Shown piece by piece: positions 48,489-61,486 of a stretch of 64,000 nt of DNA; the stretch's first letter is position 1; every line of letters begins with the position of its first letter. Position numbers and translations under genes: made by a program. The notes beneath the pieces are model-generated. The model was not told the DNA's origin. It saw only the letters and a program-made list of their open reading frames with translations, and ran no database searches. This DNA comes from Rhodocyclaceae bacterium. GTDB lineage: Bacteria > Pseudomonadota > Gammaproteobacteria > Burkholderiales > Rhodocyclaceae. The DNA lies in the NCBI GenBank assembly GCA_013791905.1, contig VMSX01000030.1, positions 104,741 through 168,740 on the forward strand, in the 5' to 3' direction.

Positions 48489-48702
48489 GGAGTAAAACGA
48501 GAAATTAATAAAGGCTGGTGCCTGCGTGCGCGGGTGTCAGGCCGTAAAAGAAAAGCTGAAAACGTGCAGGCAATGGCGATTTTAAGGCTTGCCGTCCCGC
48601 CAGCGCCGACTTTTATTTTTGCTGGGGGCGTCAGCCTGCGGCGCGATGTTGCGTTGACGTGGTTGCAGCAACTTGTCCAGACAGTCTCAACAACATAACA
48701 AA
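48489..48702. promoter_or_regulatory. divergent control region of the cyanophycin genes
   Basis: The 214 bases between the ABC exporter and the first cphA gene must hold promoters for both directions. They contain dispersed repeat copy R9 at 48591-48614 and, right after it, TTTTATTTTT and a GCTGGGGGCGTCAGCC segment resembling the repeat tail. No confident promoter boxes were found by eye. Confidence 0.45.
48591..48614 (-). repeat. dispersed repeat copy R9 (intergenic, before cphA)
   Basis: On the minus strand it reads AAAAGTCGGCGCTGGCGGGA followed by CGGC, the exact consensus head. It is one of two intergenic copies. A T-rich run follows it on the plus strand, giving a terminator-like look, though it precedes rather than follows a gene. 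Confidence 0.7.
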
Positions 48703-50892
48703 ATGAAATCCATTGAATTCCTCAAGATCGTGCATTTGCGCGGTCCCAACATGTGGACCTATCGGCCGGTGATCGAGGCCTGGGTCGACATCGGCGAACT
48801 GGAAGAATCCCCTTCCAACACCTTGCCTGGCTTCAACCAGCGGCTGACGACCTGGCTGCCGACGCTGCAAACACATCGGTGCAGCTATGGCGAGCCGGGC
48901 GGTTTTGTCAGACGCCTTGAAGAAGGCACCTGGCCGGCGCATATCCTCGAACACGTCACCCTCGAATTGCAAAACTTGGCAGGCCTGTCCGGTGGCTTCG
49001 GTCGCGCCCGCAGCATGACGCAGACGGGTCATTACAAGGTGGTCGTGCGTGCCTGGCACGAAGAGGTCACCCGCACGGCGCTTTACGCGGCACGTAACCT
49101 GGTGATGGCGGCCATTGAAGACCGCCCGTTCGACGTTGCCGGCACCATCAAGCAACTGCATGAAATGGCCGACCGCCTGATGCTTGGCCCGAGTACGGCC
49201 TGCATCGTCGATGCGGCCGGCGACAAGTCGCGGCGCATTCCGCATATTCGCCTCAATGACGGCAACCTGGTGCAACTCGGTTACGGCTCGAAAAGTCGCC
49301 GCATCTGGACGGCCGAAACCGACCGCACCAGCGCCATTGCCGAAAGCGTCGCCAGCGACAAGGACCTGACCAAATCGCTGCTCGCGCCCTGTGGTGTGCC
49401 GGTGCCTGAAGGCCGCATGGTCGACAGCCCGGCCGATGCATGGGAGGCCGCCCAGGAAATCGGTCTGCCGGTGGTCGTCAAGCCCGACAACGCCAATCAT
49501 GGCCGTGGCGTCTCACTCGAACTGATGAGCCAGGCCGAAGTCGAGGCGGCCTTCCCGATTGCCGATGCCGAAGGTGGCGGGGTGATGGTCGAGCGTTTTG
49601 TGCGCGGCGAGGAACACCGCCTACTGATTGTGAATAACAAGCTGGTAGCGGCGACGCGCGGCGAGAGCATCTTCATTACGGGAGACGGCAAGGCGACGGT
49701 ACGCGCCCTGATCGACAGTCAACTCAATACCGACCCGCGCCGTGGCGCAGCCGAGGAATTTCCGCTCGAGACGATTGTTCTTGAGAATGAACCGCTGATT
49801 CTGCAGTTGCTCAAACGCCAGAAGATGGATGGCGATGCGGTGCCGGCGGTAGGCCAGCAGATACTGATCCAGCAGAATGGCAACTGCGCCATCGACGTCA
49901 CCGACCTGGTGCATCCCGATGTGGTACGCACGGCCTGCCTCGCTGCGCGCATCGTCGGGCTGGACATCGCCGGCATCGATCTGGTGGCTGAGGACATTTC
50001 ACGTCCGCTCGCCGAACAGGGTGGTGCCATTGTCGAGGTGAATGCCGGCCCCGGCCTGTTGATGCACCTCAAGCCGGCGCAGGGCCAGCCGCGGCCGGTC
50101 GGCGAAGCGATTGCCGATCATCTCTTTCCGAGTGGCGACAACGGCCGCATTCCGGTCATCGGCATCACTGGCAGCCGCGACACCACGGCCGTCGCACAGA
50201 TCGTCGCGCGCCTGCTGCAACTCGATGGCCGGCGCACCGGGCTGGCCTGTGCAGCCGGGCTCTTTCTCGGCAACCGCAAGGTACAAGCCGGCGACTGCAC
50301 GCAATGGGAGGCGGGACAGCGCTTGCTGATCAACCGCACCGTCGATGCCGTTGTGATAGAGAATCCCTCGCACGTCATGGTCAGTGAAGGACTCGCCTAT
50401 GACCGTTGTCAGGTCGGCGTCATCACTGCCATCGACAATGCTGCCCTGTTGCCTGAACATGGTATCGACTCCGCCGAATTGCTGTTCAAGGTATTCCGCA
50501 CCCAGATCGATGTGGTGCTGCCGGGCGGCGTTGCCGTCCTGAATGCCGACGATCCGACGGTGGCTTCGATGGCTGAGCTGTCCGACGGCGAGGTGATCCT
50601 GTTTGGCTCCGATGCAGCCCTGCCCATCATCATCGAACATCGCAGCAAGGGCGGTCGAGCCCTGGTGGTGCGCGACGGGCGCATTCTGCTGGCCGTCGGT
50701 CCGCAGGAAGCACCCTTGATTGACCTGGCCGCCGTGCCGCTGCTCAATGAATCTGCCAGTCATCTGGCGGGCATTCTCGGCGCCATCGGCGCTGGCTGGG
50801 CGCTTGGCCTGCCTCCCGAGATATTGCGCACCGGCATCGAAACCTACCATTTTCCCGGCCATTCTTTTGGCGATAGCGCCGCGACTAACTAA
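48703..50892 (+). CDS. cyanophycin synthetase-like protein, shortened and with decayed ATP loop
   Basis: A 729-residue relative of CphA. The N-terminal domain (LKIVHLRGPNMWTYRPVIEA) and the ATP-grasp domain (about 210-480; VVVKPDNANHGRGVSL) are intact. In the Mur-ligase-like domain the P-loop of its neighbour, GTNGKT, is replaced by GITGSRDTT (487-495), without the lysine, and the protein stops before the C-terminal ligase domain. It may extend chains using only the ATP-grasp site, or help the second synthetase. Cyanobacterial CphA2 also lacks the second site, but equivalence is inference. The start at ATG 48703 is preferred to TTG 48673. Confidence 0.85.
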   Translation: MKSIEFLKIVHLRGPNMWTYRPVIEAWVDIGELEESPSNTLPGFNQRLTTWLPTLQTHRCSYGEPGGFVRRLEEGTWPAHILEHVTLELQNLAGLSGGFGRARSMTQTGHYKVVVRAWHEEVTRTALYAARNLVMAAIEDRPFDVAGTIKQLHEMADRLMLGPSTACIVDAAGDKSRRIPHIRLNDGNLVQLGYGSKSRRIWTAETDRTSAIAESVASDKDLTKSLLAPCGVPVPEGRMVDSPADAWEAAQEIGLPVVVKPDNANHGRGVSLELMSQAEVEAAFPIADAEGGGVMVERFVRGEEHRLLIVNNKLVAATRGESIFITGDGKATVRALIDSQLNTDPRRGAAEEFPLETIVLENEPLILQLLKRQKMDGDAVPAVGQQILIQQNGNCAIDVTDLVHPDVVRTACLAARIVGLDIAGIDLVAEDISRPLAEQGGAIVEVNAGPGLLMHLKPAQGQPRPVGEAIADHLFPSGDNGRIPVIGITGSRDTTAVAQIVARLLQLDGRRTGLACAAGLFLGNRKVQAGDCTQWEAGQRLLINRTVDAVVIENPSHVMVSEGLAYDRCQVGVITAIDNAALLPEHGIDSAELLFKVFRTQIDVVLPGGVAVLNADDPTVASMAELSDGEVILFGSDAALPIIIEHRSKGGRALVVRDGRILLAVGPQEAPLIDLAAVPLLNESASHLAGILGAIGAGWALGLPPEILRTGIETYHFPGHSFGDSAATN

Positions 50893-50906: not shown

Positions 50907-53477
50907 ATGGAAATTTCACGCATCCGGGCCCTGCGCGGCCCGAACCTCTGGAGCCGGCACACTGCGATTCAGGCGCTGGTGCTCTGTGAAGAAAACGAAA
51001 ATGCCTTGAGCCGCCTGCCGGGATTCGAGGCACGCATTCGTGCGCGCTTTCCCCACATCGGTGCAATGCGCCCGATCGGTTATGAAGGCGACATTTCGGT
51101 TGCGCATGCCATCCAGTTCGCCGCTCTCAACCTGCAGGCGCAGGCCGGTTGTCCGGTAACCTTCAGCCGCAGCGCGCCGACCATCGAGCCCAATCTGTAT
51201 CAGGTGGTGGTCGAATACACCGAAGAAGCCGTCGGCCGCCGGGCATTTGCCCTAGCCGAGGAACTTTGCCGTTCTGCCGAAAACGACACCCCCTTTGACA
51301 TCGATGCGGCACTCGCCGAGTTGCGCGAACTCGACGAAGACGAGCGCCTCGGGCCGTCCACCGGTTCCATTGTCAATGCCGCCCTGGCGCGCGGCATCCC
51401 GTGTCGCCGTCTGACCACCGGCAGCCTGGTGCAAATGGGCTGGGGCAGCAAGCAGCGCCGCATTCAGGCCGCCGAAATCGACAGCACCTCGGCCATTGCC
51501 GAATCCATAGCTCAGGACAAGGACCTGACCAAGCAGTTGCTGCATGCTGCCGGAGTACCGGTGCCGATTGGCCGTATCGTCCGGAATGCCGCCGAAGCCT
51601 GGCAAGTCGCCAATGAAATTGGCTTGCCGGTAGTGGTGAAACCGCGCGATGGCAATCAGGGCAAAGGCATCACCGTGAATATCTCGAGCCGCGATCAGAT
51701 TGAAATCGCTTTTGTGGCGGCCGAGGCCGTGCGCGACGATGTCATGGTCGAGCGCTTCATCACCGGTCACGACTTCCGCCTGCTGGTCGTCGGCGACAAA
51801 CTGGTCGCGGCAGCGCGGCGCGACCCGCCCCACGTCATCGGCGATGGTCAGCATACGGTGCGCGAGCTGGTCGACATCGTCAATAGCGACCCGCGCCGTG
51901 GCGTTGGCCATGCGACCTCATTGACAAAAATCCGCTTCGACGATATTGCCCGCGCCTGTCTGGCGGTGCAGGGCTATTCCGCCGAGTCAACGCCGCCGAA
52001 GGGGGCGCGTGTCGTCCTGCGCAACAATGCCAATTTATCGACCGGCGGATCGGCAACCGACGTCACCGACGATGTGCACCCGGACGTTGCGGCGTGTGCC
52101 GTGACGGCAGCCAAGATGATCGGGCTGGATATCTGCGGTGTCGACTTTGTCTGCGAAAATGTCAGCCGCTCGCTTGAAGACCAGGGCGGCGGCATCGTCG
52201 AGGCAAATGCCGCGCCCGGCCTGCGCATGCATCTGACCCCCTCATACGGCAAGGGGCGCGATGTCGGTGCGGCAGTCATCGACACGATGTTTCCGTCTGG
52301 TGATGACGGACGCATTCCAATCGTCGCCGTGACCGGCACCAATGGCAAGACCACCACGGTGCGCCTGATTGCTCACCTGATTGCCCAGACCGGCAAGCGT
52401 TTGGGCATCACCGCAACGGACGGCGTGTATGTCCACGGTCTGCGCATCGACACTGGTGATTGCAGCGGGCCAAAGAGCGCACGGAATGTCCTGTTGCACC
52501 CGGAAGTCGACGCGGCGGTCCTGGAAACCGCGCGTGGCGGCCTATTGCGCGAAGGTCTGGGCTTTGATCGCTGTGATGTCGCGGTGGTCACCAATATCGG
52601 CAAGGGCGATCATCTCGGTCTCAACTACATCACCACGGTTGATGACATCGCGGTGGTCAAGCGTGTCATCGTCCAGAATGTCAGTCCGCAAGGTTACGCC
52701 GTGCTCAACGCGGCCGACCCGCATGTTGCGCGCATGGCCAAGGTTTGTCCCGGTAAAACCATTTTCTTCGCAACCGATCCGCATCATCCGGTCATGATGA
52801 CGCACCGGGCCGAAGGCAAGCGTGCGCTCTACCGCGATGGAGACGCGCTGGTCGCTGCCGAGGGGGCGCTGGTCGAGCGGATCGAATTGTCCGGTATTCC
52901 GCTGACGCGCAATGGCAGCATCGGCTTCCAGGTCGAAAATGCCATGGCCGCCATTGGCGCGGCCTGGGCGCTGGGACTGGACTGGAATACCATTCGCCTC
53001 GGTTTGGCGACCTTTGTCAGCGATATCAGCACCGCCCCCGGTCGTTTTAATGTTTTTGACTATCGGGGCGCGACCCTGGTTGCCGACTATGGCCATAACC
53101 CCGATGCAATTGCGGCGCTGACACAGGCCGTTTCAGCCCTGCCGGCCAAGCAACGCTGGGTGGTAATCAGCGGCGCTGGCGACCGGCGCGATGAGGACAT
53201 CCGTAACCAGACAGAAATACTTGGCGAAGCTTTTGACGGCGTCATTCTTTATGAGGATGCCTGTCAGCGCGGTCGCGCCGATGGCGAGGTGCTGAAACTG
53301 CTGCGCGATGGCTTGGCCAAAGCTTCCCGTGCCACAGTCATCGAGGAAATTCGCGGTGAATTTCTCGCTATCGATTCGGCATTGGCAAAACTGCAAACTG
53401 GTGATCTGTGCCTGATCCTCGTTGATCAGGTGGAAGAAGCTCTGGCCCACATCAAGCAGCGCATCGCTGAGGGGTGA
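50907..53477 (+). CDS. cphA: cyanophycin synthetase
   Basis: It builds the arginine-aspartate storage polymer (multi-L-arginyl-poly-L-aspartate) without ribosomes, using one ATP for each aspartate and each arginine. The 856-residue protein has the N-terminal primer domain (ISRIRALRGPNLWSRHTAI), an ATP-grasp domain (PVVVKPRDGNQGKGITVNIS), and a Mur-ligase domain with P-loop GTNGKTTTVRL at 477-487, AVLETARGGLLREG and the C-terminal ADYGHNPDAI. All standard parts are present. It is the second of two tandem genes 14 bases apart and is followed by a terminator. Confidence 0.95.
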   Translation: MEISRIRALRGPNLWSRHTAIQALVLCEENENALSRLPGFEARIRARFPHIGAMRPIGYEGDISVAHAIQFAALNLQAQAGCPVTFSRSAPTIEPNLYQVVVEYTEEAVGRRAFALAEELCRSAENDTPFDIDAALAELRELDEDERLGPSTGSIVNAALARGIPCRRLTTGSLVQMGWGSKQRRIQAAEIDSTSAIAESIAQDKDLTKQLLHAAGVPVPIGRIVRNAAEAWQVANEIGLPVVVKPRDGNQGKGITVNISSRDQIEIAFVAAEAVRDDVMVERFITGHDFRLLVVGDKLVAAARRDPPHVIGDGQHTVRELVDIVNSDPRRGVGHATSLTKIRFDDIARACLAVQGYSAESTPPKGARVVLRNNANLSTGGSATDVTDDVHPDVAACAVTAAKMIGLDICGVDFVCENVSRSLEDQGGGIVEANAAPGLRMHLTPSYGKGRDVGAAVIDTMFPSGDDGRIPIVAVTGTNGKTTTVRLIAHLIAQTGKRLGITATDGVYVHGLRIDTGDCSGPKSARNVLLHPEVDAAVLETARGGLLREGLGFDRCDVAVVTNIGKGDHLGLNYITTVDDIAVVKRVIVQNVSPQGYAVLNAADPHVARMAKVCPGKTIFFATDPHHPVMMTHRAEGKRALYRDGDALVAAEGALVERIELSGIPLTRNGSIGFQVENAMAAIGAAWALGLDWNTIRLGLATFVSDISTAPGRFNVFDYRGATLVADYGHNPDAIAALTQAVSALPAKQRWVVISGAGDRRDEDIRNQTEILGEAFDGVILYEDACQRGRADGEVLKLLRDGLAKASRATVIEEIRGEFLAIDSALAKLQTGDLCLILVDQVEEALAHIKQRIAEG

Positions 53478-53599: not shown

Positions 53600-54049
53600 T
53601 CAGGGCTTGAGGTAGGCAAAACCTCCCCGCCCCTGCAGTTTGGCGATTTCAGCGACGCCGGACGGAACGAACTTGGCCTCTGGGAGGAACGACTTGCGAT
53701 CCATGCTGCGGTTCTTGAGCGTGATTTCGCAGACATCGAAGGTGACCCCGCGTTCCGTCAGGTTCTCGACCAATGGGTTGTAGGGATTCCCATTCTTGTC
53801 CTTGGCGCCATCCATCAGAAAGTCAACGCCCAGCGCGTGGGTCACCACAATGATCTGCGCCTGCGGATTGACGTCCAGATGGTTGCCGACATTGCGCAAG
53901 GTCGCAATCGCATGGGATGAATCATTGACGTGGTAGACCACCTTGTCTGGGTGTACGTTATTGGTCAGATCGCCCATCGAAGAACAACCACCCAGGACCA
54001 ATGCGCTTGTTGCAATCAATGCGACTACCCAGTTTCCAAGCTTGCTCAT
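53600..54049 (-). CDS. DsrE-like lipoprotein
   Basis: A 149-residue protein with a lipoprotein signal (LIATSALVLGGC, lipidated Cys22) and a DsrE/DsrF-like fold (KVVYHVNDSSHAIATLRNVGNHLDVNPQ, quoted in part; IIVVTHALGVDFLMDGA; LTERGVTFDVCEITLKNR). A single cysteine sits at about 106 in FDVCEITL, where many DsrE-like proteins carry their sulfur-accepting residue. Cytoplasmic DsrE proteins carry persulfides; this one is secreted and lies next to the sox cluster, so a role in periplasmic sulfur handling is plausible but unproven. Confidence 0.78.
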   Translation of the reverse strand: MSKLGNWVVALIATSALVLGGCSSMGDLTNNVHPDKVVYHVNDSSHAIATLRNVGNHLDVNPQAQIIVVTHALGVDFLMDGAKDKNGNPYNPLVENLTERGVTFDVCEITLKNRSMDRKSFLPEAKFVPSGVAEIAKLQGRGGFAYLKP

Positions 54050-54984: not shown

Positions 54985-55455
54985 ATGAATCAGTTGCGTA
55001 GAACATTTTTGAAGAGTTCCGGCATGGCCGGTGCGGTAATGGTTGCCATCGGGGCAGGCTTGCTCAAGTCTGGCGAAGTCATGGCGGCAACATGGAACAA
55101 GCTTGCCTTCACATCGAACAACATTGCCGACGCCATGAAAAACGCTAATTACGGCGGAGCCACGGAAAGCAAGGACATCGTGATCACGGTGCCGGATATC
55201 GCGGAAAACGGTGCGTCTGTACCGGTTGAAGTGACCAGCAACATCCCCGGAACCACATCCATCGCCATTTTTGTCGAGAAGAACATCACCCCGCTGGCGG
55301 CTGATTTCGAGATTTCCAATGGCGCCGAGCCATACATCTACACCTTCGTCAAAATGGGCCAGACCTCCCAGGTCCGCGTCGCGGTCAGGGCCGGAGGCAA
55401 GGCTTACACCGTGAGCAAGGAAGTCAAGGTCACCATCGGCGGCTGCGGCGGCTGA
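54985..55455 (+). CDS. soxY: thiosulfate-carrying Sox protein, SoxY subunit
   Basis: SoxY carries sulfur intermediates on its last cysteine while Sox enzymes act on them in the periplasm. The 156-residue protein has a Tat signal (RRTFLKSSGMAGAVMVAIGAG), a SoxY beta-sandwich, and the C-terminal swinging arm GGCGG with Cys154. GAGAGG precedes the ATG at a normal distance. It starts the sox run and is followed 55 bases later by soxZ. A long gene-poor control region lies upstream. Confidence 0.96.
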   Translation: MNQLRRTFLKSSGMAGAVMVAIGAGLLKSGEVMAATWNKLAFTSNNIADAMKNANYGGATESKDIVITVPDIAENGASVPVEVTSNIPGTTSIAIFVEKNITPLAADFEISNGAEPYIYTFVKMGQTSQVRVAVRAGGKAYTVSKEVKVTIGGCGG

Positions 55456-55510: not shown

Positions 55511-55831
55511 ATGGCTGAAGAAATGAAAATGCGTGCGACGCTACAGGGCGACATCACCGACGTGAAGGTGCGGATGAACCACATCATGGAAACCGGTGCG
55601 CGCAAGGATCCAAAGACAGGAAAACTTATCCCGCCGCACTTCATCGATCAGGTGGTGGCTACATTGAATGGCAAGACCGTGCTGGATGCGCAGTGGGGTA
55701 TCGCTATTTCCAGAAACCCGTTTATCGGGTTCAAGGTAAAGGGCGCCAAGGTCGGCGACAAGATTGTCGTCAACGCTGTTGATAATTTGGGCACGAAGTT
55801 CAGCGGCGAGGTAGCCGTAGCCGCACGATAA
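55511..55831 (+). CDS. soxZ: sulfur carrier partner SoxZ
   Basis: A 106-residue Ig-like protein that pairs with SoxY and is exported with it, having no signal of its own. Family phrases are MRATLQGDITDVKVRMNHIMETG, KLIPPHFIDQV and GISRNPFIGFKVKG-type strands (here GIAISRNPFIGFKVKGAKVGD). GAGGAG lies before the start. It follows soxY and precedes the SoxXA gene after 150 bases containing an inverted repeat. Confidence 0.95.
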   Translation: MAEEMKMRATLQGDITDVKVRMNHIMETGARKDPKTGKLIPPHFIDQVVATLNGKTVLDAQWGIAISRNPFIGFKVKGAKVGDKIVVNAVDNLGTKFSGEVAVAAR

Positions 55832-55981: not shown

Positions 55982-57244
55982 ATGAAAATGAATAATTCGC
56001 AACTTATGCTGTTTGTTCTTGCAGTTTGCTTTTCATTTGCTGCGCCGGCTTCAGCCAGTGAATCTGGCAAGGGGAAAAAAGCGGCCCAGCTGGAACTGAA
56101 GAATCCCGCTTACGCCGGTCCCTGGGAGCGCTACAAGGGCTGGCCGGAAACCAGTTGGAGCGAATTCTCCACGCTACAGAAGATTGTCCCGTCGCCCATC
56201 GGCAAAACCATCAAGATCAAGGGTTCCATCGAGGGTGATCCCAAGAAAGGCGAAAAGCTGGCCTTTGACCGTTCGCGTGGTGGCAGTTGCCTGGCCTGCC
56301 ACGTCATGGGCAATCCGATACCCTCATTGCCCGGCAACGTCGGCCTCGACCTTTCAGCTCACGCCATCTGGGGCCGCAGCGACGAATACATCTTCAATTA
56401 CATCTTCGATCCGCGCAAGACAAATCCCAACACGGTGATGCCACCGTGGGGTGCGCACAAGCTGTTCAGTGTTGAGGAAATCAAGGACATCGTGGCGTTC
56501 CTCAAAACGCAGAAAACGCATTCCGTGTTCAAGGACAACCTGGAAAATCCCACCACCCGGCCAGTTCCGGAAGAGACGCGGGATAACCTCGACCCCTTTG
56601 TCAATGAAGCGATGGCGGCAATGGAGAAGGGCAAGGAGCTGTATTCCAGGGAAGGTCCAAACAAGCAATCCTGCACTACCTGCCATGCCGAGCCGGAGCG
56701 GATGTTCAAGAGCTGGGCGGCAGGCATGCCGAAGTACGAATCGTGCCTGCGCAAGGTGATCGGGGTTGAGGAATTTATCACCCGCCATGCACGCGCCACC
56801 ACCGGTGACGATTTCCTGATGCAAAGCGATGAGAATCTTGCCCTGTCCGTTTACCTGCGTTTTCTGACTAATGGCGAGCCGATGAATGTCGATGCCAAGT
56901 CAAAAGATCACAAACTGGCCATCAAGCGCGGTACGAAATTGCTCAACACCAAACTCGGGCAATTGAATCTGGCCTGCGTTGATTGCCATACCGCCGAGAA
57001 GGGTGGCAATAAATGGATCCGTGGCCAGTGGCTGGGCGAGTTCCGTGGCCAGATGGACCACTTCCCCACATGGCGTACCAGCCGTTCGGAAATCTGGGAC
57101 ATCAACAAGCGCTTCCAGTGGTGCAACGTGTCGGTTCGCGCCAACGAACTTCCGCCCGGCTCTCCCGAGTATGGCGACATCGAGCTGACGCTTTCCGTCC
57201 TCAATAACGGACAGAAGATCAGCGTGCCGGGAATCCGGCATTGA
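55982..57244 (+). CDS. soxXA: fused SoxX-SoxA c-type cytochrome, three haem sites
   Basis: SoxXA oxidatively joins thiosulfate to SoxY. Usually SoxX and SoxA are separate; here one 420-residue protein holds both. After a signal peptide (cleavage near ASA, residue 26), the SoxX-like part has haem site CLACH (103-107) and the axial-ligand region VMPPWGAHKLFSVEEIKDIVAFL (Met153). The SoxA-like part has CTTCH (231-235), CVDCH (332-336) and Cys381 in RFQWCNVSVRA, the position of the haem-ligating persulfide cysteine, followed by PPGSPEYGDIELTL. No frameshift or internal start separates the halves. It lies between soxZ and soxB. Confidence 0.88.
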   Translation: MKMNNSQLMLFVLAVCFSFAAPASASESGKGKKAAQLELKNPAYAGPWERYKGWPETSWSEFSTLQKIVPSPIGKTIKIKGSIEGDPKKGEKLAFDRSRGGSCLACHVMGNPIPSLPGNVGLDLSAHAIWGRSDEYIFNYIFDPRKTNPNTVMPPWGAHKLFSVEEIKDIVAFLKTQKTHSVFKDNLENPTTRPVPEETRDNLDPFVNEAMAAMEKGKELYSREGPNKQSCTTCHAEPERMFKSWAAGMPKYESCLRKVIGVEEFITRHARATTGDDFLMQSDENLALSVYLRFLTNGEPMNVDAKSKDHKLAIKRGTKLLNTKLGQLNLACVDCHTAEKGGNKWIRGQWLGEFRGQMDHFPTWRTSRSEIWDINKRFQWCNVSVRANELPPGSPEYGDIELTLSVLNNGQKISVPGIRH

Positions 57245-57306: not shown

Positions 57307-57354
57307 ATGCATACCCGTAATGGGGCAGTTTTTGATCGCACAGGGTGCTCTCAC

Positions 57355-59070
57355 ATGTCCATGAACCGTCGCGAATTCATGCAAATCCTGGCGGTGGCTT
57401 CTGCCGCCGGTTTTGCCTTGAACAGCCGGCAAGCCTTGTCGCAGGGCAATGCCGGGAATTTTTACGACCTGCCGGCTTTCGGCAATGTTTCGTTGATGCA
57501 TTTCACCGATTGCCATGCGCAGTTGCAACCGATTTACTTCCGTGAGCCGAACGTCAATATCGGCCTCGGCGACAGCCTGAACCGTCCGCCGCATCTGGTG
57601 GGCGAAAAGCTTCTGAAATCCTTTGGTATCCGTCCCGGTAGTGTCGAGGCGCATGCTTTCACCTATCTCGACTTCGACAAGGCCGCGCGCACCTATGGCA
57701 AGGTCGGCGGCTTCGCTCATCTGTCGACACTGGTCAAGAAAATCCGCGCCAGCCGTCCGGGTGCCCTGCTGCTCGATGGCGGCGATACCTGGCAGGGCTC
57801 GGCCACTGCCCTGTGGACCAAGGGGCAGGACATGGTAGACGCCTGCAAGTTGCTCGGTGTCGATGTGATGACCGGCCATTGGGAATTCACCCTGGGCGCG
57901 GAGCGTGTGCAACAAATCATCGACAACGATTTCAAGGGCAAACTTGATTTCGTTGCGCAGAACATCAAGACCAACGATTTCGGCGACCCGGTGTTCCCGC
58001 ACTATGTGATCAAGCAGATCCAGGGCATCCCGGTCGCCATCATCGGCCAGGCCTTTCCCTATACGCCGATCGCCAATCCGCGCCACATGATTCCCGACTG
58101 GAGTTTCGGCATCCAGGATGACCACATGCAGGAGGTCGTCAACACCGCGCGTGCCAAGGGTGCGCAGGTTGTCGTGGTGCTGTCGCACAACGGCATGGAT
58201 GTGGACCTGAAAATGGCCAGCCGGGTGAGCGGCATCGACGCCATCATGGGCGGCCATACCCACGACGGCATACCCGCACCCTCGATAGTCAAGAATCCGG
58301 GTGGCCAGACGCTGGTAACCAATGCCGGCTCCAACGGCAAGTTCCTCGGCGTGCTGGATCTGGACGTCAAGGGCGGCAAGGTTGCCGGCTTCAAGTACAA
58401 ACTGATGCCGGTATTCGCCAACCTGATCGAGCCGGATGCCGACATGGCGGCGCTGATCAAGAAGGTGCGTGCGCCCTACGAGGCCAAATTGGCAGAAAAA
58501 CTCGCTATCACCGAAGGCACGCTGTACCGCCGCGGCAACTTCAACGGCACCTTCGATCAGTTGATCCTCGACGCCATGATGGAAGTGAAGGGCGCGGACG
58601 CGGCATTCTCCCCGGGCTTCCGCTGGGGCACTTCGCTGTTGCCGGGTCAAACCATCACGCTGGAACACCTGATGGACCAGACCGCGATCACCTACCCGCA
58701 GACCACCCTGAACGAAATGACCGGCGCAACCATAAAGGACATCATGGAAGATGTCTGCGACAACCTGTTCAACCCCGATCCCTACAAGCAGCAGGGCGGC
58801 GACATGGTGCGGGTCGGCGGCATCAGCTATACCTGCGATCTGCAGCAGGGCATGGGCAAGCGCATCAACAACATGATGCTCAAAGGCAAGCCGCTTGACC
58901 CCAACAAGACCTACAAGGTGGCCGGCTGGGCGCCAGTGGCCGAAGGTGCAACCGGCGAACCGATCTGGGACGTCGTGGCCAGCTACCTGCGTGACAAGAA
59001 GGTCATCTCACCGCGCAAGCTCAACCTGCCGAAACTGATCGGCATCAAAGGCAACGATGGCATTGCCTGA
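57355..59070 (+). CDS. soxB: thiosulfohydrolase SoxB
   Basis: It hydrolyses the sulfonate from SoxY-bound S-thiosulfonate, releasing sulfate. The 571-residue dimanganese metallophosphatase-fold protein has a Tat signal (MNRREFMQILAVASAAG) and metal motifs FTDCHAQL, LLDGGDTWQGS, GHWEFT, LSHNGMD and GGHTHDG. GHWEFT in place of the nucleotidase GNHEF marks SoxB. The frame is open from 57307, but AGGG before ATG 57355 and the Tat signal support this start; ATG 57361 is also possible. Confidence 0.96.
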   Translation: MSMNRREFMQILAVASAAGFALNSRQALSQGNAGNFYDLPAFGNVSLMHFTDCHAQLQPIYFREPNVNIGLGDSLNRPPHLVGEKLLKSFGIRPGSVEAHAFTYLDFDKAARTYGKVGGFAHLSTLVKKIRASRPGALLLDGGDTWQGSATALWTKGQDMVDACKLLGVDVMTGHWEFTLGAERVQQIIDNDFKGKLDFVAQNIKTNDFGDPVFPHYVIKQIQGIPVAIIGQAFPYTPIANPRHMIPDWSFGIQDDHMQEVVNTARAKGAQVVVVLSHNGMDVDLKMASRVSGIDAIMGGHTHDGIPAPSIVKNPGGQTLVTNAGSNGKFLGVLDLDVKGGKVAGFKYKLMPVFANLIEPDADMAALIKKVRAPYEAKLAEKLAITEGTLYRRGNFNGTFDQLILDAMMEVKGADAAFSPGFRWGTSLLPGQTITLEHLMDQTAITYPQTTLNEMTGATIKDIMEDVCDNLFNPDPYKQQGGDMVRVGGISYTCDLQQGMGKRINNMMLKGKPLDPNKTYKVAGWAPVAEGATGEPIWDVVASYLRDKKVISPRKLNLPKLIGIKGNDGIA

Positions 59071-59113: not shown

Positions 59114-60220
59114 ATCGCTGACTCAAGCCTCACAACAATTGTCGTCGGGTGGGGCTTCGCCCTCGGCATCGTCTTTGGCTTCATCGCCAATAAAACCAGT
59201 TTCTGCACCATGGGGGCCGTCTCGGATGTCGTCAACATGGGGCACTGGGGGCGCATGCGCGCCTGGCTGCTGGCAATTGCCATCGCCATGCTCGGCACCA
59301 ATGCGCTGGCATATTTCGGCCAGATCGATCTGGCGAAAACCATCTATACCGGCAGCAGTTTTCCCTGGCTGGCCTTTATCGTGGGCGGACTGTGTTTTGG
59401 CGTTGGCATGACACTCGCTTCGGGTTGCGGCAATAAAACCCTGGTGCGCATCGGCGGTGGCAACCTGAAATCCCTGGTCGTGTTCATCTTCATGGGCTTT
59501 GCTGCCATCGCGACGCTGAAGGGCATCCTTGGCGCATTCCGCGTCAATGTGCTGCAGGCGCCCAGCGTTTCGCTGCATTTCGATCACGGCCAGACCCTGC
59601 CCGCGCTGCTGTCCGGTGGCGGCGGCATGCAAACCATGCAACTGGCAGTAACCGGCGCCATTGTCCTGGCCATCCTGATTTTCGTTTTCAAGGACCGGGA
59701 ATTCCGCCAGGAACTGGACAACAAGCTGGCTGGCCTGGTCATCGGCCTGATCGTGGTCGGCGGCTGGTATCTGACGGGCCACATCGGCCTGGCGGAAAAT
59801 CCGGATACGCTGGAGATGACCTATTTCGGCACCAACACCCGCCTCGCCGAATCGATGTCGTTCGTCGCCCCGACCGCCTACACGCTGGAATATTTCGGCT
59901 ACTGGACCGACACCTCGAACATCATCACCTTCGGCGTCGCCACCATCTTCGGCGTGGGCCTCGGCTCGTTCCTGTATGCGCTGATTTCCAAGTCATTCCG
60001 CTGGGAATACTTTACTTCGTCCCAGGACATGATCAACCACATCGGCGGCGGCGTGCTGATGGGCTTTGGCGGCGTCACCGCCATGGGCTGCACCATCGGG
60101 CAGGGCGTCACCGGGGTATCCACCCTCTCGCTGGGATCCCTCCTGGCGTTTGTCTCCATCGTCGCCGGCTCTGCCATCACCATGAAAATCCAGACCTCGT
60201 TAATGATGCGTGAAGCATGA
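59114..60220 (+). CDS. YeeE/YedE family sulfur-compound transporter, start codon non-standard
   Basis: A hydrophobic protein of about 368 residues with many membrane helices. Conserved cysteine motifs of the YeeE (thiosulfate uptake) family are present: FCTMGAVSD (Cys31), ASGCGNK (Cys105) and MGCTIGQG (Cys326). Between the stop at 59108 and the ATG at 59210, which lies inside FCTMGAVSD, the frame has no ATG, GTG or TTG. AAGGAG at 59101-59106 is seven bases before ATC GCT GAC at 59114, so this ATC is the likely start (or a changed ATG). Placed after soxB, it may import thiosulfate or another sulfur compound. Confidence 0.8.
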   Translation: MADSSLTTIVVGWGFALGIVFGFIANKTSFCTMGAVSDVVNMGHWGRMRAWLLAIAIAMLGTNALAYFGQIDLAKTIYTGSSFPWLAFIVGGLCFGVGMTLASGCGNKTLVRIGGGNLKSLVVFIFMGFAAIATLKGILGAFRVNVLQAPSVSLHFDHGQTLPALLSGGGGMQTMQLAVTGAIVLAILIFVFKDREFRQELDNKLAGLVIGLIVVGGWYLTGHIGLAENPDTLEMTYFGTNTRLAESMSFVAPTAYTLEYFGYWTDTSNIITFGVATIFGVGLGSFLYALISKSFRWEYFTSSQDMINHIGGGVLMGFGGVTAMGCTIGQGVTGVSTLSLGSLLAFVSIVAGSAITMKIQTSLMMREA

Positions 60221-60275
60221 CAAACAAGCTTTTCCCCGACCATCCCCAACCCACACACTGCAGGAGCAATCAACC

Positions 60276-60773
60276 ATGACCAGACAGACTCTCCTTCCGT
60301 TACTTGCCATCACACTGCTCGCCCCATTTGCACAACTGGCTGGCGCCGCAGAACCCGCCCCGGTGGTGCGCTACTCGGCGGAGCAGAAATATGAATATGC
60401 GCGCGACGACCTGATGAATGCCATCAGCAGTCGCGGCTTTGTCATCGACCAGAACTCGCACGTCGGCCAGATGCTCGATCGCACCGGCAAGGACCTCGGC
60501 ACCACCAAGAAAATCTTTGGTGACGACCAGGCCCAGACGTTTTCGTTCTGCAGCGCGGTACTCTCGCGCAAGACCATGGAGGCCGATCCGCACAACATCG
60601 CGTTCTGCCCCTACACCATCCTCCTCTACAGCACCGCGGCCGAACCCAAGAAGGTGTATATCGCCTATCGTCCCCCGTCCAGCCCGAGTGGCAGCCCCGC
60701 TTCCAAGGCCGCGCTCAAGGAAGTCGAGATGCTGCTGGACAAGATTTCCCGCGAGGCGCTGAACATCAAATGA
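60276..60773 (+). CDS. secreted DUF302 family protein
   Basis: A 165-residue protein with a signal peptide (MTRQTLLPLLAITLLAPFAQLAGA). Its DUF302 domain shows the helix YARDDLMNAISSRGFVID, two cysteines (FSFCSAVL and IAFCPYTILLY) and the strand KKVYIAYRPP. AGGAG lies nine bases before the ATG. DUF302 proteins occur beside sulfur-oxidation and YeeE genes; their role is not established. The stop overlaps the next gene (ATGA), so it is probably made with the DsbC-like protein, which may act on its cysteines. Confidence 0.82.
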   Translation: MTRQTLLPLLAITLLAPFAQLAGAAEPAPVVRYSAEQKYEYARDDLMNAISSRGFVIDQNSHVGQMLDRTGKDLGTTKKIFGDDQAQTFSFCSAVLSRKTMEADPHNIAFCPYTILLYSTAAEPKKVYIAYRPPSSPSGSPASKAALKEVEMLLDKISREALNIK

Positions 60774-61486
60774 AAATGATGAAACCATTCTCTGGTCTTG
60801 CCTTGCTGGCTATCTTCATCGCCGGTACGGCCCTGGCCAATGAGGCCGGCATCAGCGCCGCGATGCAAAAGAGATTCCCGTACCAAAAACTCGTCAGTGT
60901 CACCAAGACGCCTTATTTCGGCTTGTACGAAGTGGTCTTCGATGACCAGCTGGTGTACGCGGACGAGAAACTGAGCTACATGATTAGCGGCAGTGTGATT
61001 GACCTGCGCACCATGCAAAACCTTACCGAATTAAGGGAAAAGGCGCTGTTTGCGGTCAATCTGAATACCTTGCCCCTCGATCTTGCGCTCAAGCGCGTCA
61101 AGGGCAATGGCAGCCGGAAAGTGGTCGTCTTTGCCGATCCGAACTGCTCCTTTTGCAAGCGACTGGAAAAGGAAATGGTCAATTTGAACAACCTGACCAC
61201 CTACATCTTTCCGCTCTCACTGCTGAACGGTTCCGAAGAGAAGAATCGCGCCATCTGGTGCTCGTCCGACCGTCTCAAGGCTTGGGACGACACGATGCTG
61301 CGCAACGTGTCGCCGACCGCAGAGAAGAAATGCGACACCGCCGCACTGACCAAAATCGCCGCAATGGCGAAAGATCGCCGCGTCAACATAACCCCCACGT
61401 TGATTTTCGAAGACGGCTTGGTAAAGCCGGGCATCATGACCACCGATCTGCTTGAGCAGCAGTTGGTGGCATCGGGTTCAAAGTAA
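60770..61486 (+). CDS. DsbC-type periplasmic thiol:disulfide isomerase, CSFC active site
   Basis: A 238-residue protein with a signal peptide, an N-terminal DsbC-like dimer domain (about 24-95) and a thioredoxin domain with Cys126-Ser-Phe-Cys129 in FADPNCSFCKRLEKEM. The cis-proline loop is VNITPTLIFEDG. E. coli DsbC has CGYC, so the active site differs. At the end of the sox run it may keep SoxY or SoxXA cysteines reduced, as SoxW or DsbC-like proteins do elsewhere; this is inference. It is followed by a terminator made by repeat copy R10. Confidence 0.88.
   Translation: MKMMKPFSGLALLAIFIAGTALANEAGISAAMQKRFPYQKLVSVTKTPYFGLYEVVFDDQLVYADEKLSYMISGSVIDLRTMQNLTELREKALFAVNLNTLPLDLALKRVKGNGSRKVVVFADPNCSFCKRLEKEMVNLNNLTTYIFPLSLLNGSEEKNRAIWCSSDRLKAWDDTMLRNVSPTAEKKCDTAALTKIAAMAKDRRVNITPTLIFEDGLVKPGIMTTDLLEQQLVASGSK

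Follow-up and report, generated by a model that had tools for sequence, protein, structure and literature searches.

Gene order and features of the sox locus

The window analysed here is a DNA stretch of 64,000 nucleotides from a Rhodocyclaceae draft genome, and the sox genes described below lie on its forward (+) strand. The gene order is soxY-soxZ-soxXA-soxB, with the products of soxY, soxZ and soxB all scoring over the cut-offs of their curated models. SoxY (54985..55455; TIGR04488, 159.7 bits, cut-off 125) carries a Tat signal and a C-terminal GGCGG motif. Its gene is followed by soxZ (55511..55831; TIGR04490, 121.7 bits, cut-off 76), the fused gene soxXA (55982..57244) and soxB (57307..59070; TIGR04486, 890.6 bits, cut-off 550). 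Downstream of soxB a YeeE/YedE-type sulfur transporter is encoded (59210..60220, +; PF04143, 227 bits, cut-off 27), which is a possible SoxT; three NCBIfam transporter models match it, each under its cut-off. The frame of a DUF302-like protein (60210-60773; PF03625, 20.7 bits, below the cut-off of 23) overlaps the end of this gene. In certain sulfur oxidisers other than this one, a DUF302 gene stands between soxA and soxB (PMC5248467, available text). The sox cluster ends with a DsbC-like periplasmic disulfide isomerase (60770-61486; PF10411, PF13098). On the other side, a DsrE/DsrF-like protein is encoded on the reverse strand (53600-54049; PF02635, 38.3 bits) divergently from soxY. By eye it has a lipoprotein-looking signal, and it also adjoins the cluster in another Rhodocyclaceae metagenome-assembled genome (MAG), L005. 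Two neighbouring cyanophycin synthetase genes (48673-50892 and 50907-53477) are found further away. The first is shorter (739 aa) and reaches the cut-off of the subfamily without reaching that of the equivalog; the second exceeds both.

The soxXA gene is a 420-residue open reading frame (ATG to TGA, zero internal stops) that encodes a fused SoxX-SoxA three-haem cytochrome c. The initial annotation had placed SoxX and SoxA on one chain with the SoxX part first, and the curated profiles agree. On the whole protein, the SoxX model TIGR04485 scores 64.0 bits (cut-off 61, residues 100-176) and the SoxA model TIGR04484 scores 145.9 bits (cut-off 110, residues 211-419). For residues 80-180 alone the SoxX score is 60.2 bits, slightly below the cut-off, and a six-frame search of the genome gives 60 bits. 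The three CxxCH motifs proposed at residues 103-107, 231-235 and 332-336 are present together with Cys381 on this one frame. Pfam assigns the C-terminal part to SoxA/TsdA. Among solved structures, the nearest SoxA chain by sequence is 1h31_A (E=3.5e-18, residues 201-419) and the nearest SoxX chain is 1h31_B (E=8.9e-5, residues 83-156). An AlphaFold model of the protein (21-row alignment, mean pLDDT 72.4, no haem modelled) superimposes on the SoxA chain 1h31_A with Z=20.6 and an rmsd of 2.4 (220 residues aligned, 195-420) and on the SoxX chain 1h32_B with Z=10.9 and an rmsd of 3.3 (104 residues aligned, 71-178). The pLDDT is 47-62 in residues 321-390.

A putative signal peptide for periplasmic export (residues 1 to ~26, 55982..56059) was recognised by eye from the sequence. 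It is followed by an N-terminal extension (residues 37-81, 56090..56224) that stands ahead of the SoxX fold and in which Pro47, Trp48, Arg50, Tyr51 and Trp54 are invariant in 21 aligned rows. The corresponding motif PW.[RKH][YF] was found in 43 of 52 fused proteins and in none of 111 separate SoxA frames or 116 separate SoxX frames; N-termini may be lacking from this count where a short locus truncates the frame. The fused proteins without the motif are L132, L124, L133, L169, L170, L134, L135, L136 and the truncated L038.

The SoxX cytochrome domain (residues 100-176, 56279..56509; TIGR04485 and the 1h32_B match) has its haem motif at Cys103, Cys106 and His107 (56288..56302). Cys106 and His107 are present in 36 of 36 aligned proteins and Cys103 in 35, the remaining one having a gap. 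Met153 (56438..56440; 36/36) is the predicted second ligand of this haem; SoxAX is reported to contain an electron-transfer haem with His/Met ligation (PMC6879331, available text). A linker (residues 181-203, 56522..56590), delimited from the 21-row alignment and with a pLDDT of ~70 over residues 181-200, leads to the SoxA domains (residues 211-419, 56612..57238; TIGR04484 and the 1h31_A match). These contain the motif of haem 1 (Cys231, Cys234 and His235; 56672..56686) and that of the catalytic haem 2 (Cys332, Cys335 and His336; 56975..56989), both kept in 36/36. His269 (56786..56788) is the predicted sixth ligand of haem 1. Cys381 (57122..57124), assigned by conservation as the catalytic persulfide/thiosulfonate site, is preceded four residues earlier by Arg377. 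Cys381 is kept in all fused (52/52), separate dihaem (42/42) and monohaem (47/47) SoxA proteins, Arg377 in 52/52, 41/42 and 47/47, respectively.

The genome (3.64 Mb, 30 contigs, rated 99.99% complete) contains one such gene. A whole-protein search returns the window protein alone, and no separate soxX was found at E<=0.01; the SoxX profile finds one place in the genome, the fused frame (60 bits). No other SoxA scores over the threshold, the one further match (22.9 bits) being far below the cut-off. Likewise, no SoxC reaches its cut-off (best match 22.8 bits against 420). One DsrA is present (505.4 bits, cut-off 392.85). The gene content would be in line with a Sox system that lacks SoxCD and works together with Dsr, in either direction of Dsr; this combination appears among the core pathways in the available part of PMC6397845.

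The predicted sixth ligand of haem 1

The two-chain SoxAX complexes of Rhodovulum sulfidophilum (1h31, 1h32) and Paracoccus pantotrophus (2c1d) share with the window protein the fold, the catalytic Cys, the three haems and the expected chemistry. They differ in consisting of separate chains and in one residue near haem 1, and the P. pantotrophus SoxA frame (L190) is without the PW.RY motif. The SoxA part had initially been described as keeping two haem motifs as in this three-haem class. This holds for the motifs; at the predicted sixth-ligand position of haem 1, the window protein has His269 where both SoxA proteins have an aligned Cys. In Rhodovulum SoxA this Cys is presumably the haem 1 ligand.

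Position 269 was compared in a MAFFT alignment of 141 distinct SoxA domains (52 fused, 42 separate dihaem, 47 monohaem). His is present in 49 of the 52 fused proteins and Cys in the remaining three (L134-L136). The separate dihaem proteins have Cys (37), Ser (3), Glu (1) or His (1), and all 47 monohaem proteins have Cys. An alignment-free count of the residue that stands 19 positions after the conserved Pro, made on a slightly different set of rows, gave the same picture for the fused proteins, with His in 49/49 outside L134-L136 and Cys in 3/3 of these. By this count Cys is found in 38/45 separate dihaem proteins (His in 0/45) and in 48/51 monohaem proteins. Besides the haem motifs and Cys381, no conserved Cys is found in the fused set.

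With His269 in place of Cys, haem 1 is predicted to be bis-His ligated (His235/His269) instead of His/Cys. Met249 was considered as ligand and is disfavoured, being kept in 44/52 fused proteins against 49/52 for His269. Judged from the aligned sequences, His269 is a property of one fused clade and not a consequence of fusion as such. Since L134-L136 are fused and yet keep Cys, the notion that fusion brings about the His ligand was rejected. In the literature searched, no mention was found of a His ligand for haem 1 in fused forms, although it may already be in print.

Three divergent fused forms (L169, L170 and L133, from genomes G1156, G1129 and G119) have 11 extra residues between the SoxA haem motifs. 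His269 is kept in all three; the SoxA scores of L169 and L170 lie below the curated cut-off. The 47 monohaem SoxA proteins (for example L070 and L125) have neither Cys231 nor His235 and keep both Cys234 and Cys at position 269 (47/47). This suggests a disulfide between these two residues in place of the haem.

Distribution and origins of the fusion

A contig scan with the window protein, whose patterns favour close relatives, yielded 35 loci. All are fused and open through the SoxX and SoxA parts, and 34 have three CxxCH motifs, the remaining one (L038) being cut by the contig end. All 35 come from MAGs, including Rhodocyclaceae, Thiobacillus, Hydrogenophilus, Pseudolabrys, Reyranella, Enhydrobacter and Thiomargarita. 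In L005 the fused frame is kept at 82% identity; it is therefore not a sequencing artefact of one assembly. A further fused soxXA, with soxYZ and soxB nearby, is located on plasmid unnamed1 (1.18 Mb) of Indioceanicola profundi SCSIO 08040 (L189, 10001-11128). Among the entries listed in the PLSDB table, which is incomplete, there is no gene at this place.

In the sampled genomes the fused form is patchy. It was found in at least 1 of 398 genomes of the phylum sample (that of the window itself), at least 7 of 369 of the class, at least 12 of 300 of the order and at least 2 of 199 of the family. Each of these counts includes the window genome and is derived from query ranges and frame lengths of the 4 to 9 candidates scored per genome, so that fused genes may be missed. 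None of the five congeners listed has the fused form, and two of them (G019 and G080) each have a SoxA scoring ~218 bits. Replacement by horizontal transfer may reasonably be inferred.

With the window's proteins as tblastn queries, soxY, soxZ or soxB was found beside the fused gene in 21 of the 35 loci. In the other 14 (L006-L015, L017, L027, L028 and L032), none was found in the fetched flank (up to 5 kb, some contigs being shorter). When ORFs of 18 loci were clustered to look at the neighbours of the orphan loci, no family other than the fused gene itself occurred in more than four. Further SoxA genes were searched for in the genomes of 27 of the 35 loci and in 18 sampled genomes with a fused gene; these 45 entries correspond to 42 distinct genomes after three pairs with identical places were collapsed. 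One SoxA match is present in 20 of the 42 and more in 22 (E<=1e-20). For the 14 orphan loci, ten genomes (L006-L014, L017) contain a further SoxA and four (L015, L027, L028, L032) do not. Since many of the genomes with a fused gene are MAGs of unstated completeness, the absence of a second SoxA is a soft result. Given the orphan loci and the coexisting second SoxA, a side role of the fused protein is possible in some genomes.

A tree of fused and unfused forms was built from 128 SoxA domains (44 fused, 41 separate dihaem, 43 separate monohaem). In this tree, 41 fused rows including the window protein form one clade with an SH-aLRT support of 100; 41 of the 49 proteins with His269 stand in it, the rest having been left out as near-copies. 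The window protein thus belongs to one all-fused clade that spans alpha-, beta- and gammaproteobacteria. The other fusions appear to be of separate origin. L135 and L136 fall within the separate dihaem group in both the SoxA and the SoxX tree and may represent one or two events, and L134 stands apart on a long branch of the SoxA tree, so its place is unsure. The SoxX-domain tree, which contains SoxX-like rows only and has many open forks (99 columns), places the three sets likewise among the rows listed, with a support of 80 for a main fused set of 40 rows.

Parsimony counts four changes, at least two of which are forced by well-supported branches. When all 44 fused rows are forced together, the log-likelihood cost is 56.8 (AU p=0.0415). 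A single origin of all fusions is therefore rejected, although not strongly. With L134 and L135/L136 outside the main clade, the fusion probably arose more than once. In two unfused loci (L208, L209), soxX precedes soxA, and their stop-to-stop frames overlap. In five others (L113, L138, L145, L147, L173), the two separate genes share a reading frame, are arranged head to tail and have just one stop codon separating them. A fusion from such overlapping or abutting pairs would need little.

It is true, as the initial annotation had it, that SoxX and SoxA are two proteins in well-studied systems. Nevertheless, fused SoxXA has been published before, for Halorhodospira (PMC8877833) and for Beggiatoaceae (PMC11172852, which cites Kappler and Maher 2013, among others). 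The available parts of PMC6335251, PMC3072093, PMC12285272, PMC10609205 and PMC10532065 make no mention of such a fusion. No mention was found, in the literature searched, of the spread within one clade, of separate origins or of the His269 pattern. According to its description, the Halorhodospira protein resembles that of the window in having SoxX fused N-terminally to a dihaem SoxA (PMC8877833, available text). Beggiatoaceae are likewise described with a single gene for SoxX and SoxA, no separate soxX being reported in the available text, and with a SoxCD-less Sox system. Thiomargarita L027 and L028 are in the clade of the window protein, and these two as well as the Thiotrichaceae locus L032 have His269.

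For Beggiatoa leptomitoformis, which is likened to the window here by published description, one soxAX gene with one protein accession is given in the available part of PMC7356093. In that genome soxAX, soxYZ and soxB carry widely separated locus tags, whereas the genes form one cluster in the window. Its soxAX is upregulated on average 15-fold on endogenous sulfur by RT-qPCR, and the SoxAXYZ proteins were detected without significant change (PMC11507549, available text).

Proposed function and alternatives

Very probably, the window gene encodes a periplasmic fused SoxXA, the enzyme with which thiosulfate oxidation begins in bacteria; it would conjugate thiosulfate to SoxYZ in a SoxCD-less route and has a haem 1 that is predicted to be bis-His. 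By analogy with SoxAX and TsdA, thiosulfate would be joined oxidatively to Cys381 on haem 2, and the -SSO3 group would then be passed to the Cys of SoxY (GGCGG). The SoxX haem (His107/Met153) on the same chain would take up the electrons of haem 2 and pass them to an external cytochrome c. Sulfate would be released by SoxB and the sulfane sulfur would continue via the SoxCD-less route (Dsr). This scheme follows the model for SoxAX and TsdA, in which thiosulfate is conjugated to the haem-ligating Cys and electrons pass to a His/Met haem (PMC4423706, PMC6879331; available text). The spacing of Arg377 and Cys381, with three residues between them, equals that of Arg119 and Cys123 in TsdA, where the Arg is called invariant in TsdA and SoxA (PMC4423706). 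The same source, as far as available, gives an edge-to-edge distance of 10.7 Å between the two haems of R. sulfidophilum SoxAX and mentions a rival mechanism, based on copper, that was proposed for SoxAX. The literature searched yielded no biochemistry on any member of the main fused clade.

The fusion was initially proposed to fix a one-to-one stoichiometry. In kind this is nothing different, since the unfused SoxA and SoxX pair as a heterodimer anyway (PMC4423706, available text). As also proposed initially, the fusion may alter the exit of electrons from the complex; the two haems of the route share one chain in the fused protein, and none of the results points to a different route. A fusion comparable in its parts is TsdBA of Marichromatium purpuratum (5lo9), in which a Cys-ligated thiosulfate-oxidising cytochrome is likewise joined to its electron acceptor (PMC6879331, PMC9774590; available text). 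Unlike SoxXA, TsdA forms tetrathionate and does not use SoxYZ.

A different job of the fused protein, either with another sulfur carrier or in TsdA-like formation of tetrathionate, would be in line with the 14 loci where no soxY, soxZ or soxB was found alongside, with the additional SoxA in 22 of the 42 genomes and with the changed ligand position of haem 1. In the window, however, the gene sits between soxYZ and soxB and encodes the only SoxA found, 21 of the 35 loci keep soxY, soxZ or soxB adjoining, and the catalytic Cys and Arg are kept. A different job is therefore considered unlikely.

Less likely still is a fusion of SoxA to some general class I cytochrome c in place of SoxX. For the N-terminal part, the Pfam matches are all to generic cytochrome c families (PF13442, PF00034), and the isolated segment stays just short of the SoxX cut-off. 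Against this reading, the whole protein exceeds that cut-off, as do all seven of the additional proteins scored (six divergent fused proteins and the plasmid copy, 63.6-82.4 bits). SoxX chains are among the solved structures that match by both sequence and fold, although generic cytochromes c match the fold too, at lower Z. Furthermore, the SoxX-domain tree, weakly resolved and built from SoxX-like rows only, gives the groups of the SoxA tree. An artefact of assembly or annotation, in which a frameshift or a lost stop codon joined two genes, could be imagined for a draft genome in 30 contigs. It is refuted by independent assemblies, with 35 related loci open through both parts and a further copy on a plasmid record titled complete (L189), and has practically no probability left. 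The preferred reading remains a fused SoxXA acting on SoxYZ.

It is conceivable, though somewhat doubtful, that the main fused clade represents a redox redesign beyond the covalent joining of two proteins, with a bis-His haem 1 and horizontal spread among alpha-, beta- and gammaproteobacteria. The N-terminal PW.RY segment is found in 43 of 49 proteins of this clade. If this were true, the potential of the bis-His haem 1 should be well above that of a Cys-ligated haem, and haem 1 could become a working electron store or a second exit for electrons. For the Cys-ligated active-site haems of SoxAX, potentials of about -400 mV or lower are reported (PMC6879331, available text). Study of a naturally single-chain enzyme whose haem 1, as predicted, has no Cys ligand would presumably also be simpler, with no second Cys-ligated haem to overlap the signals of the catalytic one. 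For annotation, the His/Cys pattern marks these fused proteins as a subclass of their own, which the generic SoxA model scores low (145.9-147 bits for the window protein against 200-260 bits for many separate SoxA proteins).
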